Positions 40,115 to 45,085 of a stretch of 54,837 bases of DNA are shown one piece after another. The position numbers were made by a program, and so were the translations under genes. Location: positions 1 to 54,837 of the forward strand of contig DATGEL010000077.1 in assembly GCA_035310145.1 (NCBI GenBank). Direction: 5' to 3'. Numbering within the stretch: position 1 is the stretch's first letter; the number at the start of each line of letters is the position of its first letter. The notes beneath the pieces are model-generated. The model searched no databases, was not told the DNA's origin, and saw only the letters and a list, made by a program, of their open reading frames with translations. The DNA comes from Dehalococcoidia bacterium (lineage in GTDB: Bacteria > Chloroflexota > Dehalococcoidia > CAUJGQ01).

Positions 40115-40282
40115 CTATGCCTGGCGGCGCCGGTCGCCGGCGGGGCGCGGGCCGGCGGGTTGTCGCGCAAGGCGCATCAGCGCGGCGAGCCGGGGCGCCG
40201 GGCGCGGCAGGGTCGCCGAAACTTTGGGCCGTTCACCGCGGCCTTCGGCCTGGCGCATGCGAATAAATTCCATGTCGGTCAT
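40115..40282 (-). CDS. Small unknown protein, 55 aa
   Basis: ATG 40282 has an excellent GGGAGGAGG about 10 bases upstream; the stop is TAG at 40117-40115. The product starts MTDMEFIRMRQAEGRGERPK and continues with Pro/Ala/Arg-rich sequence ending GDRRRQA, so it is strongly basic. No family is recognised. Supported by the ribosome-binding site, the terminator right after it and the promoter upstream of its neighbour 40412-40588, with which it forms a probable two-gene transcript. Confidence 0.6.
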   Translation of the reverse strand: MTDMEFIRMRQAEGRGERPKVSATLPRPAPRLAALMRLARQPAGPRPAGDRRRQA

Positions 40283-40411: not shown

Positions 40412-40588
40412 CTACGCCGCCAGGGATTCGACGGCGTCGGGCCCGGCGGGCGCGGCGGCGCCGCGGCTCATGCGCTGCCCAGCGGCGTTCGCCTTCAGGG
40501 CAGCCAGCGCCCGGCGCTCGCCGGCGATGCGGGCAACGTCGCGCGATAGGTCGCGCAGGCGTGCCTGGAAATACAGATCTTCGATCAT
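40412..40588 (-). CDS. Small unknown protein, 58 aa
   Basis: ATG 40588 follows CGGGAGGGTTCC, a good ribosome-binding site. The sequence MIEDLYFQARLRDLSRDVAR continues IAGERRALAALKANAAG: an amphipathic, charged helix of about 35 residues, then a flexible Gly/Pro/Ala tail. Not recognised. About 80 bases upstream is a strong sigma70-type promoter, so it is first in a short transcript with 40115-40282. The frame is open to 40723 but crosses that promoter, so the shorter form is chosen. Confidence 0.62.
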   Translation of the reverse strand: MIEDLYFQARLRDLSRDVARIAGERRALAALKANAAGQRMSRGAAAPAGPDAVESLAA

Positions 40589-40811: not shown

Positions 40812-41117
40812 TCAGCTCAGCCGCCGGATCGGGGCAGTCCCGCCGCCGATCGTCGCGCCGCCGGTCGCGGACGGCACCGGCGTCGCCGCGTGGGGGTAGA
40901 GGCTGGGAAAGGTGCACGGCAGGTTCGCGATGACATCCGCCAGGAAGCCGTACTCGTAGCCCCGGACATCGTCGTCCGAGCGGTCCAGCGCTGCGGCAAG
41001 TTCCCGGAAGGTCGCCCGTTCCCCCGCGCTCAACTGGTTCCACCACTCGCGGTTGTCCGCGATGAAGGCCTGGACTGCCGCGTCGAGCGGCGCCGTATCG
41101 GCCGGTTGAGTCGTCAT
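40812..41117 (-). CDS. Small unknown protein, 101 aa, paralogue of 41268-41606
   Basis: ATG 41117 (MTTQPADTAPLDAAVQAFI) has GGGAGAG 6-12 bases upstream. Residues 12-60 contain WWNQLSAGERATFRELAAAL and DDDVRGYEYGFLADVI, shared in pattern (W-x-Q-L-S-A-x-E-R-A-x-F, then D-V-x-G-Y-x-Y) with the neighbour 41268-41606. The last 30 residues are Pro/Ser/Thr/Gly-rich (ATPVPSATGGATIGGGTAP) and end IRRLS. One cysteine (LPCTF). No signal peptide. The layout of acidic helical head plus low-complexity tail is compatible with a peptide precursor, but nothing proves this. Confidence 0.72.
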   Translation of the reverse strand: MTTQPADTAPLDAAVQAFIADNREWWNQLSAGERATFRELAAALDRSDDDVRGYEYGFLADVIANLPCTFPSLYPHAATPVPSATGGATIGGGTAPIRRLS

Positions 41118-41267
41118 CCGTTCTCTCCCTTCAGCGTCCATATCGCTTCGCCGCCCCCGGCGAGCCGGGGCGGGTGCGCCGCCGGAGGCCGCCGGGGGCA
41201 ATCCGTCGGCAGCGCCGGCATCGTCGGCCCCGCAGCCCGGCGGGGCACCCTCGCCGTCGGCGGGCGC

Positions 41268-41606
41268 TCAGTTGAGCCGCGTCGTGCTGCTTGGCCCGTT
41301 GTAGGAGCCGGCGGTCGTGCCGCTGGAGGCCGCGGGCACCGGCGTCGGCGCCGGAACGGGCTGCGGGACGAAGGGGTTCGGCGTGTTCTGGATCACCATC
41401 CAGATGAAGCCGAGGCTGCTCTGGCCGTATTCGACATACCCGTAGCCCTCGACATCCTCGCCCTGCTGCTCTGCCGCCGGGGCAATGAGCCGGCCGAAGA
41501 ACGCGCGTTCCTTGGCGCTGAGCTGACCCCACAGGTCCTGGAGCTTGGTCGCGAAGCCCTGCAGCTCCGCCGCGGTCAACGGCTCGCAGATCTGCTCGGT
41601 GGTCAT
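41268..41606 (-). CDS. Small unknown protein, 112 aa, paralogue of 40812-41117
   Basis: ATG 41606 follows ACGAGGAG. The protein starts MTTEQICEPLTAAELQGFAT, then LWGQLSAKERAFFGRLIAPAAE and EDVEGYGYVEYG, aligning with the 101-aa neighbour. The tail (PFVPQPVPAPTPVPAASSG, TTAGS, GPSSTTRLN) is again Pro/Ser/Thr-rich and ends with R-L-N, parallel to R-L-S in the paralogue. The two genes are 150 bases apart in the same orientation. No transmembrane segment or known domain is recognised. Confidence 0.74.
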   Translation of the reverse strand: MTTEQICEPLTAAELQGFATKLQDLWGQLSAKERAFFGRLIAPAAEQQGEDVEGYGYVEYGQSSLGFIWMVIQNTPNPFVPQPVPAPTPVPAASSGTTAGSYNGPSSTTRLN

Positions 41607-41652
41607 GGCTGAACTCCTCGTATTGTTTATTGTGGTCGTCAGGATTGTTCGC

Positions 41653-41670
41653 CGCCCGCCGGCCGGCGGG
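41653..41670. repeat. 18-base palindrome between small genes
   Basis: GCCCGCCGGCCGGCGGGC is a perfect palindrome 15-32 bases after the stop of the 54-aa gene and before the ribosome-binding site of the 112-aa gene. No U-tract follows, so it may be an mRNA-stability or attenuating hairpin rather than a terminator. Confidence 0.6.
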
Positions 41671-41684
41671 CAGCGGGTAGTCGC

Positions 41685-41849
41685 CTAGAAGTCGCTGCTG
41701 GTGACACGCCCGCCGAACGGGACCGGCCGCGCGCCGAGCTGGGGGATCTCCTCGCCGATCGCAAGCGTCGGCACGACGGGCAGCACGGCGCCCAGGCCGG
41801 CCACTCCGCCGCCGGGCAGCATCATTCGGGCCGTATCTTTACCACGCAT
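41685..41849 (-). CDS. Small unknown peptide, 54 aa
   Basis: ATG 41849 has AGGAGATGAAAG immediately upstream; the stop is TAG at 41687-41685. The sequence is MRGKDTARMMLPGGGVAGLG, then AVLPVVPTLAIGEEIPQLGA and RPVPFGGRVTSSDF. It has a glycine-rich hydrophobic first half and a short polar end. It is too short for a domain search by eye and I recognise nothing. It heads the same-strand series with 41268-41606 and 40812-41117 and lies 155 bases downstream of the LuxR regulator gene. Confidence 0.6.
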   Translation of the reverse strand: MRGKDTARMMLPGGGVAGLGAVLPVVPTLAIGEEIPQLGARPVPFGGRVTSSDF

Positions 41850-41863
41850 CTTTCATCTCCTGT

Positions 41864-41877
41864 GTTTGCGAGCAAAC
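41864..41877. promoter_or_regulatory. GTTTGC-n2-GCAAAC dyad upstream of the small-gene series
   Basis: GTTTGCGAGCAAAC is a 14-base sequence with perfect six-base arms around GA, 15 bases upstream of ATG 41849 and overlapping the edge of its ribosome-binding region. It could be an operator or an mRNA hairpin. A second dyad, GGTACC...GGTACC, lies at about 41954-41978. No convincing promoter hexamers were found between it and the LuxR gene. Confidence 0.45.
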
Positions 41878-42004: not shown

Positions 42005-45000
42005 TCAGGCGTCGGCGGCGGGGGAATGCAGGCCGTGCGCGGTGGCCCAGGCGGCGACCTGGGCGCGCTTGTGCAGGCCCAGCTTGTCGAAGATGTTGGC
42101 GACGTGGGCATCCGCCGTGCGCTCGGAGATCACCAGCGCAGCGGCGATCTGGCGGTTGCTGAGGCCGCGGGCGAGCAGCCGTGCGACCTCCTGCTCCCGT
42201 GCCGTGAGTGTGCGGCTGCGCCGCGTACCCGCGCGGGGGCGCGACGCCGCGGGCGCCCCTGCCGCCGTTCGCGCGCCGGCGGGCGCTGCGGCTCCGGCTG
42301 TCGCGGGCGCCGTGCCCTGGAATCCAACTTCGCGCTGGCCCGCCGCGTCGCGCTGCTGCAGGTTCAGCGCCCGTTCCACGAGCCGGGCCATGCCGAGATC
42401 TTGCGCGATGGTCAGCGCCTCGGCCACGAGCTCCAGCGCCCGCGCACGCTCGCCGGGATCGCCGCGGGCGAGCAGCATGGCGGCGTGCTCGTAGTGCGTG
42501 GTGGCGAGCCACGGCTTCGCACCCAGCCTGGCGTGCAGCGCCTGGGCGCGCGCGAAGTGGCCCTCCGCCGCGTCCCAGCGGGCCAGCAACGCGGCCAGCA
42601 GGCCCAGGTAGTGCGCAACCGCACCGAGGCAGACCACCGCGGCTCCGGCCACGACGAGTTGCTCGGCGTAGGGAAGCAAGAGGTCGTACAAGACTGCGGC
42701 GCGTTCGCCGTCCCCGAGGCAGGCGCACACCTCGGCGAGTGAGGTCAGCGCAACCAGCCAGTTCGCATCGCGCGCAATGCCCTCGAAGCCCCCGCGCGCC
42801 AGGCGTTCGAACTCGCCGCGCGCGGCGTCCGCCTCGCCCTGCTCCGCGCGGACCGTGGCGAGCGCGGCACGCCACACCGGCGTATCCGGGAACCGTTCCA
42901 CCAGTTCACGCAGCCACGGCTCAAGCTCGGCCGCGCGGCCCTGGAGGCGTCGCAAGGCGCCCCACTGCACGATGAACAAGGGGGTTGCGTCGCGGCGCTG
43001 CGTCCGGCGTCCGAGGGCGAGCGCCCGCTGAACCAGCTCCTCGGCCTCGGCAAAGCGCCCGAACAGCAGGGCGCGCATCGCCCGCCAGCGCGCGGCGCGC
43101 CAGAGGTGCAGCGGCTGCCGCAGGCTGTCGGCGAGCATGGCATGCGCCGCGATCTCCTTGTCAAGCGCCGCGCCGTCGCCCAGTTCCAGCAAGTCGGCGA
43201 CCAGCCAGCGGCTGGCGGCCAGCATCAACTCCTGGTCGCCGGACGCCGCCGCCGCCTTGCGCATCGCCTCGCCGGCGGCGAAGCGCTCTCGCAGGTGCTG
43301 CGGCCGCCAGAGCGCCTCTCGCCGGGCGTTGAGCGCGTGGGCGAGCGCGGCCGGGTCTTCGAGCCGGGTGGCAACGTCCAGCGCCTGCCGGCTCAGGGCG
43401 ATGCTCGGCTCCGCCTGCTCGGACCAGTACAGCGCGGCCGACAGCCCGGCCAGCACCATCACGCGCAGCGCGTCGTCGCGCTCGCCCAGCGCTGCCAGCG
43501 CCTGCTCCAACAGCACCACCCGGACATGGTCCACGGGGCCGGCATCGGCCACGGCACCGTAGCCGAGCGCGGCGCGCGCCATCCCTTCGGCATCGCCGAG
43601 CCGCCGGGCGATCGCCGCCGCGTTCTGAAAGGTCTGCCGCGCCGCCTCCACCTCGCCGGACCAGTTCTGCGCCACGCCGAGCGAGAGCAGGAGCGCGCAA
43701 CGCCGCGCTTCGTCTGGCCGCGGCAGCAGGTCGAGCGCCTGCAGCGCCATGATGAAATAGCGCGCGGCTTCCTCGTAGGCCAGGGACGCCAGCGCGCTTT
43801 CCCCGGCCAGCCGCGCGTAGGCCACGGCCTTATCGGCGTCGCCGCCGGCAGCGGCCTGCACGAAGTGGTGCGCCAACTGCCCCTGGTGCGGATGGGCCGC
43901 TTCCCCGTACACCGCCTCCAGCGCCTCCGCGACCTGACGGTGCAGCCGCATGCGGCGCGTGGTCGGCAGCTCTTCGTAGAGCGCCTCCCGGATCAGCGCG
44001 TGGCTGAAGCGATAGCGGCCCGCAGCGCCGGGCATGGCGGCGATCAGGCGAGCGACCTCCGCGTGTTCCAGCAGCTCCAGCGGCGCGTCGCCGGCAAGCT
44101 CCGTCACCCGCTCAAGCTCGCGCACGCCGAACTCACGGCCGATTACGGCCGCGATCGTCAGCACGCGGCGGCAGGCGGGCGGCAGCCGGCTCAGCCGGTA
44201 CTCGAGCAGTTGCAGCGGCCCGTGCGCATCGCCCCGGCTGCCGGGCATGGCGGTGGGGGCACCGCCACCGCTCCGCGCTTCGGCCGCCAGGCGGCGCGCG
44301 ATCTCGGTGACAAAGAACGGATTACCGGCGGTTTCAAGCAGCACCGCCGCGACCAGCTCCGCCGGCGGCTCGACGCCGGTGATCTCCGCAAGGCACCGCA
44401 CCACATCGGCCTCGGCCAGCCCGCCAAGCACGTGCCGCTCGTGCAGGTGCGCCCGCATCAGTACGGCGATCGTCCGGGCGAGGGGCTGCTCGCGGTCCAC
44501 ATCGACGCCGCGATAGGTTCCCACCACCAGCAGGCGGCTCCGGTGCAACTCCCAGCCGAGAAACTCCAGCAGGAGCAAGGACGGCCGATCGGCCCAGTGC
44601 AGGTCGTCGAGCACGAGCAGCAGCGGCTGGACCCGGGCCGCGTTGTGGAGAAAGGCCGCCACGGAGTCGAAGAAGCGAAACCGCGCCTGCTCGGGCTCAA
44701 GCGGCGGCGGAGCGGGCAGATCTGGCAGCCACTCTCGCACCTGCGGCACGACCTGGGCGATATCCGCTGCGCCGGCGCCCATCTGCGCCAGCACCGTATG
44801 CGGCTCGTGATCGCGAACGTAGCCGCGGATGATCTGGATCCACGGCCAGAAGGCCGGCGCCCCCGCGTCTTCCGAACAGCGGCCCCAGAGCGCGCGGACG
44901 CCTTGCAGACCGGCTCGCATGGCCAGCGCGGCGGCCAGGCGCGTCTTGCCGATCCCCGGCTCCCCGGCGATCCACGCCAGGTGTCCAACGCCGGCGATGG

Positions 45001-45085
45001 CCGCTTCCAGCCCGGCATCGAGCGCCGCCAGCTCAACCTCGCGGCCGAAGAAGCCGCCGACACGAGGCACGGACGGTGAGGTCAT
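42005..45085 (-). CDS. Large ATP-binding LuxR-family (LAL) regulator
   Basis: A 1026-aa transcription factor. The N-terminal AAA/STAND module has Walker A GEPGIGKT at 41-48 and Walker B LLVLDDLHWAD. A long TPR-like helical region occupies about 350-930. The C-terminal LuxR-type helix-turn-helix (about 955-1015) is intact: LTAREQEVARLLARGLSNRQIAAALVISERTADAHVANIFDKLGL. LAL proteins integrate a ligand signal with ATP binding and activate operons such as maltose or antibiotic genes. It could control the small genes directly downstream. A TATACT -10 lies at 45140-45145. Confidence 0.93.
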   Translation of the reverse strand: MTSPSVPRVGGFFGREVELAALDAGLEAAIAGVGHLAWIAGEPGIGKTRLAAALAMRAGLQGVRALWGRCSEDAGAPAFWPWIQIIRGYVRDHEPHTVLAQMGAGAADIAQVVPQVREWLPDLPAPPPLEPEQARFRFFDSVAAFLHNAARVQPLLLVLDDLHWADRPSLLLLEFLGWELHRSRLLVVGTYRGVDVDREQPLARTIAVLMRAHLHERHVLGGLAEADVVRCLAEITGVEPPAELVAAVLLETAGNPFFVTEIARRLAAEARSGGGAPTAMPGSRGDAHGPLQLLEYRLSRLPPACRRVLTIAAVIGREFGVRELERVTELAGDAPLELLEHAEVARLIAAMPGAAGRYRFSHALIREALYEELPTTRRMRLHRQVAEALEAVYGEAAHPHQGQLAHHFVQAAAGGDADKAVAYARLAGESALASLAYEEAARYFIMALQALDLLPRPDEARRCALLLSLGVAQNWSGEVEAARQTFQNAAAIARRLGDAEGMARAALGYGAVADAGPVDHVRVVLLEQALAALGERDDALRVMVLAGLSAALYWSEQAEPSIALSRQALDVATRLEDPAALAHALNARREALWRPQHLRERFAAGEAMRKAAAASGDQELMLAASRWLVADLLELGDGAALDKEIAAHAMLADSLRQPLHLWRAARWRAMRALLFGRFAEAEELVQRALALGRRTQRRDATPLFIVQWGALRRLQGRAAELEPWLRELVERFPDTPVWRAALATVRAEQGEADAARGEFERLARGGFEGIARDANWLVALTSLAEVCACLGDGERAAVLYDLLLPYAEQLVVAGAAVVCLGAVAHYLGLLAALLARWDAAEGHFARAQALHARLGAKPWLATTHYEHAAMLLARGDPGERARALELVAEALTIAQDLGMARLVERALNLQQRDAAGQREVGFQGTAPATAGAAAPAGARTAAGAPAASRPRAGTRRSRTLTAREQEVARLLARGLSNRQIAAALVISERTADAHVANIFDKLGLHKRAQVAAWATAHGLHSPAADA

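Follow-up and report, generated by a model that had tools for sequence, protein, structure and literature searches.

We propose that two neighbouring paralogous genes in a Dehalococcoidia genome probably encode precursors of a new RiPP-like family, in which an acidic hairpin would act as the leader and the sequence after a [D/E]VxG[Y/H/F] motif as the core. We regard the pair as probable precursors because a constant acidic front is followed by an ever-changing tail across the family, and because the fronts of their relatives adjoin enzymes that remodel peptides. The window, by which we mean the whole stretch of 54,837 nucleotides that was analysed, is contig C77 of a 5.3-Mb genome in 148 contigs, and the locus within it comprises the following features, listed from upstream to downstream.

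42005..45085, minus strand: LAL-type LuxR regulator, 1026 aa, upstream of the series and 155 bp from the 54-aa ORF
41864..41877, no strand: perfect dyad GTTTGC-GA-GCAAAC, just upstream of the 54-aa ORF
41685..41849, minus strand: 54-aa ORF heading the series, with ATG start, AGGAG ribosome-binding site and coding-like GC pattern
41268..41606, minus strand: predicted precursor A, an ORF of 112 aa with ATG start and GAGGAG ribosome-binding site
41442-41606, minus strand: head of precursor A, 55 aa, net charge -5, ending DVEGY
41271-41441, minus strand: tail of precursor A, 57 aa, rich in Pro, Ser, Thr and Gly
40812..41117, minus strand: predicted precursor B, an ORF of 101 aa with ATG start and AGGGAG ribosome-binding site
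40956-41117, minus strand: head of precursor B, 54 aa, net charge -5, ending DVRGY
40815-40955, minus strand: tail of precursor B, 47 aa
40747..40782, minus strand: intrinsic-terminator-like hairpin closing the series, 14 pairs of which 13 are G-C, followed by TTCTCGTT

A first-pass annotation had described three same-strand small genes, headed by a dyad and closed by a terminator, and each of these elements is present: the ribosome-binding sites of the 54-, 112- and 101-aa genes are Shine-Dalgarno-like, the 14-pair hairpin runs from 40782 to 40747 on the minus strand, and the dyad is perfect, with a chance expectation in the window of 0.07 even with one mismatch allowed. GC content at the three codon positions is coding-like in the 112-aa gene (0.61/0.52/0.91), the 101-aa gene (0.67/0.58/0.87) and the gene for the LAL regulator (0.81/0.52/0.88). 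The 112- and 101-aa products are paralogues (BLASTP E 2e-13, 42% identity over 85 aa) and share, exactly as had been reported, the motifs WxQLSAxERAxF and DVxGYxY and the endings RLN or RLS. Their tails are still related to each other (45% identity, z 7.5), and the case for tail hypervariability therefore rests on the wider family and not on this pair. The 54-aa ORF lacks the head domain and has no relative in the DNA fetched for the family loci, and scans of the window ORFs against Pfam and NCBIfam returned no match. Beyond the terminator, two further small ORFs with good ribosome-binding sites lie on the minus strand (40412-40588, 58 aa, and 40115-40282, 55 aa); neither has the head domain or a relative in the fetched loci.

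The upstream LAL regulator, whose P-loop GEPGIGKTR and C-terminal LTAREQEVARLLARGLSNRQIA HTH were read directly in the translation, may set expression of the window pair, a suggestion that rests on adjacency. Its HTH is approximately 43-50% identical to those of LuxR proteins near the family members on C168 and C17. The dyad is a possible operator specific to this locus; a role as a family-wide operator was rejected, as it is absent upstream of every other family member fetched. No match to a sigma-70-like promoter was found for the small-gene series.

A search with the 112-aa protein alone returned only its neighbour and a faint match in the nearest relative (E 4e-4). Further members, in the same genome and in others, came from a profile made of those three heads, and two larger profiles brought the catalogue to 33 members at 22 loci, all in Chloroflexota. 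The genome containing the window holds eight of them (two on C77, three in tandem on C13, one on C17 and two on C22), its sister genome and nearest relative, G001, holds nine, and the remainder are in G092 (four), G101 (two), G129 (four), G189 (five) and G197 (one). Against the family profile, precursor A scores 70.6 bits (E 5e-19; precursor A is itself included in the profile) and precursor B 58.9 bits. Members already inside a profile score high by construction, and the fair test is the sister genome: there, a profile built without them recovered members on C52, C29, C26, C64 and C37 at E 1e-12 to 8e-9. With the same profile, 24 of 29 and 5 of 7 genomes included in the searches next to positive ones gave no match or none at E 1e-4, and 26 of 29 and 5 of 7 were without a match. 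The family is patchy, since the A3 profile matched 8 of 400 genomes of a phylum sample at E 1e-3. A scan of a GTDB contig collection with a hand-made consensus alignment, narrow as it was, suggested that the family is rare, finding only two loci, both in the Chloroflexi MAG CRAIB_MAG58 (G092). No relative was found in viral contigs queried with A2 and with the G197 member, nor in plasmids queried with a hand-made head consensus. Weak phylum-wide matches (such as L014, L015, L017, L018 and L020-L022) lay in larger unrelated ORFs or contained stops and were dropped. The genomes are mostly draft MAGs, and genes were called with a simple GC-position script and by reading ORFs. A tree of the heads is poorly resolved (2 of 29 branches starred); it joins the first C13 member of the window's genome with the C37 member of the sister genome, and these orthologous members both adjoin a CxxCxxCC protein.

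Throughout the family, heads of 45-61 aa end in [D/E]VxG[Y/H/F] or a close variant, with no Gly-Gly motif at the head end. Net charge is negative in 32 of the 33 heads (mean -5.6) and zero or positive in 27 of the 33 tails (mean +1.3), the extreme being G189, where five tandem copies have heads of -11 to -12 and short tails of +7 to +9. Aromatic residues make up 16-34% of the C17, G129 and G197 tails. Within arrays, heads are 34-100% identical and most tails are no more alike than shuffled sequences (z about -1 to 2), the exceptions being the window pair, C29 (z 11) and G129 a/b (z 6.8); most arrays thus show the conserved N-terminal leader and variable C-terminal core by which RiPP precursors are generally recognised. 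Substitution rates by codon position are 0.30/0.25/0.40 in heads and 0.48/0.48/0.53 in tails, values that are descriptive only because several of the compared pairs are saturated, and whose Fisher values are not independent tests because tails were cut at a motif that we chose and pairs share sequences. The head rates point to selection on the protein. Precursor A as modelled by AlphaFold has head helices at 12-28 and 31-46 (pLDDT about 92-95) and a tail at about 50, so that the head is apparently a helical hairpin of approximately 50 aa and the tail disordered; a PDB sequence profile search and a Foldseek search with the head model gave no meaningful match. In G129, members a and b (L039:7855-8548, minus strand) have heads identical at 162 of 162 nucleotides and tails only 34% identical, which may represent recent duplication or gene conversion, or an effect of assembly.

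The first-pass annotation had seen in the window pair the layout of modified-peptide precursors, and with the wider family taken into account this idea has good support from the acidic structured heads, divergent tails, tandem arrays and enzyme-adjacent relatives. Its alternative of a matrix protein gains nothing. Homologues exist, their heads show codon-position bias, and none has a known unrelated function.

Putative modification enzymes are encoded with relatives of the pair at three loci. On C29 of the sister genome, a radical SAM enzyme of TIGR03975, 'RiPP maturation radical SAM C-methyltransferase' (644 bits, cut-off 282), is followed on one strand by members a and b, two P450s and a methyltransferase, and the two members have near-identical Val-rich ends, LAGVSIVVGVMF and LAGVSVVVGVGVMF. 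On C22 of the window's own genome, the first member lies upstream of a HemN-like radical SAM gene, which is followed by a small ORF and by genes for a methyltransferase, a TrmO-like protein and a SPASM radical SAM enzyme; beyond these, the second member lies on the opposite strand. This locus also has a BTAD regulator upstream, and a DUF6065 protein is encoded beside the second member (L067:5513-6430, minus strand). On C17 of the same genome, a Tyr-rich member with a Tyr/Trp-rich tail is divergent from a P450 gene. Radical SAM genes, whose co-occurrence had been put forward as a check, lie beside relatives at two of these loci; no YcaO or LanM gene was found among the neighbours examined. Radical SAM or P450 genes lie within 5 kb, a limit of our choosing, at 3 of 12 loci in the two closest genomes (expected 0.62, P 0.02; in these two genomes, radical SAM genes number 18 and 17, and P450 genes 8 and 6) and at 3 of 23 loci in seven genomes (expected 1.06, P 0.09; the 22 catalogued loci plus one partial match). 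The excess over the 23 loci is weak, which makes the neighbour count modest on its own, and we therefore place the weight on the identities of the enzymes. A general partnership of TIGR03975 with the family was rejected, since nine other TIGR03975 loci in the phylum sample, to which the sister genome does not belong, lack the family head; at least one of the nine (L144) has an NHLP-like precursor instead. These Chloroflexota loci (L144-L152) hold other small ORFs, including short peptides with an FTxNExGxL-type motif at L146 and L149.

Several observations count against the precursor reading. There is no gene for modification, proteolysis or export within the window, as the first-pass annotation had noted for the surroundings of the pair; most single-copy loci have unremarkable neighbours; and the tails of the window pair have no Cys pattern or Tyr/Trp richness that would indicate one chemistry. 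The earlier suggestion of an orphan set served from elsewhere fits, in that other contigs of the same genome carry relatives beside radical SAM and P450 genes. An orphan set with every feature of the family's predicted precursors, the window pair may be served in trans, unmodified or idle.

It is most likely that the head is the leader of a new family of RiPP precursors. In our model, the maturation machinery would recognise the hairpin as a constant docking handle, leaving the core after [D/E]VxG[Y/H/F] free to change so that the product diversifies. In clusters having radical SAM enzymes, P450s or both, these would modify the tail; the Val-rich ends on C29 would suit C-methylation. Cleavage at or near the DVxGY motif, a boundary placed by analogy with NHLP and Nif11, and export would complete maturation. 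The window pair might be modified in trans, for example by the C22 radical SAM cluster or the C17 P450 of the same genome, or not at all.

NHLP and Nif11 precursors are known to consist of a structured leader followed by a core, and they can also lie apart from their enzymes (PMC2887384); protein-protein engagement of a structured leader has been modelled for NHLP (PMC12455567). In some RiPPs the leader is removed by an S8 protease, and protease genes often lie elsewhere (PMC10885120). Like Nif11-type (N11P) and NHLP leaders, the family has a long, structured putative leader and a hypervariable putative core, with many paralogues within one genome and predicted precursors that are often distant from modification genes (Haft, Basu, Mitchell 2010, PMC2887384). 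However, the head is about 50 aa here as opposed to 70-83 in Nif11/NHLP, and it ends in [D/E]VxG[Y/H/F] where the NHLP cleavage motif is Gly-Gly. No Nif11 model (TIGR03798 or Pfam Nif11) was matched by 28 members at E up to 2, and NHLP TIGR03793 gave no hit. For Aroma-sacti NF045560 and the DynW-associated RiPP NF041299, one or two members gave best E values of about 0.01-0.04, below the curated cut-offs (NF045560 16.4 bits, cut-off 30) and a weak lead only; that NF045560 is the same family was not supported in the window's own genome. The C29 locus resembles TIGR03975 systems in pairing two family members with a full-length enzyme, yet this precursor type was not seen beside the nine other Chloroflexota TIGR03975 genes, and C29 adds P450s carrying a leader-like hairpin. 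In the P450-modified RiPPs (biarylitides, cittilins and tryptorubin-type), a small precursor gene lies beside a P450 gene, and leaders and cores are much shorter than in the Chloroflexota family. The Tyr/Trp-rich tail on C17 and the P450 facing it suggest a likeness to these systems; a P450 that itself carries the hairpin, as on C29, is a difference.

An unlikely alternative is that these are unmodified secreted peptides, in which the head is an export or pro-region cut by a subtilase or M48 peptidase, the cationic, aromatic or Pro-rich tail is active as it is, and the clusters with radical SAM enzymes and P450s are exceptions. This explanation would accommodate the S8 subtilase found with a GAF protein beside members in G129 and G197, the ABC exporter with a cNMP domain that G197 has in addition, the M48 peptidase beside the five cationic G189 copies (L068:54-3826, minus strand), and the absence of modifying enzymes at most loci. 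The lack of a Gly-Gly motif speaks against it, and it is hard to explain without modification why a TIGR03975 enzyme adjoins two members with near-identical Val-rich ends, or why radical SAM genes lie between the C22 pair.

Returning to the leader reading, both C29 P450s have an N-terminal extension that matches the head profile (23.7 and 18.8 bits; L106:4780-7487, minus strand), and the predicted structure of a C29 P450 has an N-terminal hairpin with helices at 10-24 and 29-41. Among ORFs in 16 other P450 regions, the best head-profile match was 7.7 bits and internal. The extensions score low and lack DVxG, and the two P450s share 48% identity, so that the P450 hairpin represents no more than a single event. 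It hints at, but does not prove, a docking domain common to precursors and enzymes. A bolder idea, which we hold only tentatively and think improbable in its full form, is that the hairpin is a portable docking tag on dispersed precursors and tailoring enzymes, one surface gathering both, with orphan precursors served in trans. If true, the P450 hairpin would be a testable case of a leader-like domain common to substrate and enzyme.

The same P450 fusions would fit small adaptor or regulatory proteins, whose hairpin pairs with LuxR-type regulators or enzymes and whose disordered tail is a freely drifting spacer, with no peptide product. We consider this distinctly improbable. The predicted disorder of the tail is consistent with it, as are the LuxR-type regulators close to the window pair and to the C168 and C17 members. 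However, regulator types differ between loci, and tandem arrays in which the head is conserved and the tail strongly cationic or Tyr/Trp-rich are what peptide products, not spacers, typically show. On C29, the two tails are conserved relative to one another, and a RiPP maturase is encoded next to them. That the window pair consists of decaying orphan copies left without a present product after loss of the family cluster, as the missing enzymes and the 54-aa ORF without relatives might suggest, is very unlikely given intact frames, good ribosome-binding sites, coding-like GC3 (0.91 and 0.87), a strong terminator and heads that still match the family profile at 59-71 bits.

If the precursor reading is right, the family represents a leader type so far missing from catalogues, in a phylum whose peptide chemistry has been little studied, the acidic hairpin with [D/E]VxG[Y/H/F] would be a simple handle for products missed by standard models, and the tandem arrays would show core diversification behind a constant leader. 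Separately, the G197 member lies in an island (L070:582-17001) that also encodes a TIR-like protein, a patatin, the GAF protein, the S8 subtilase, the ABC exporter with its cNMP domain and a RyR/TPR-S/cyclase protein, and that may be a conflict system.
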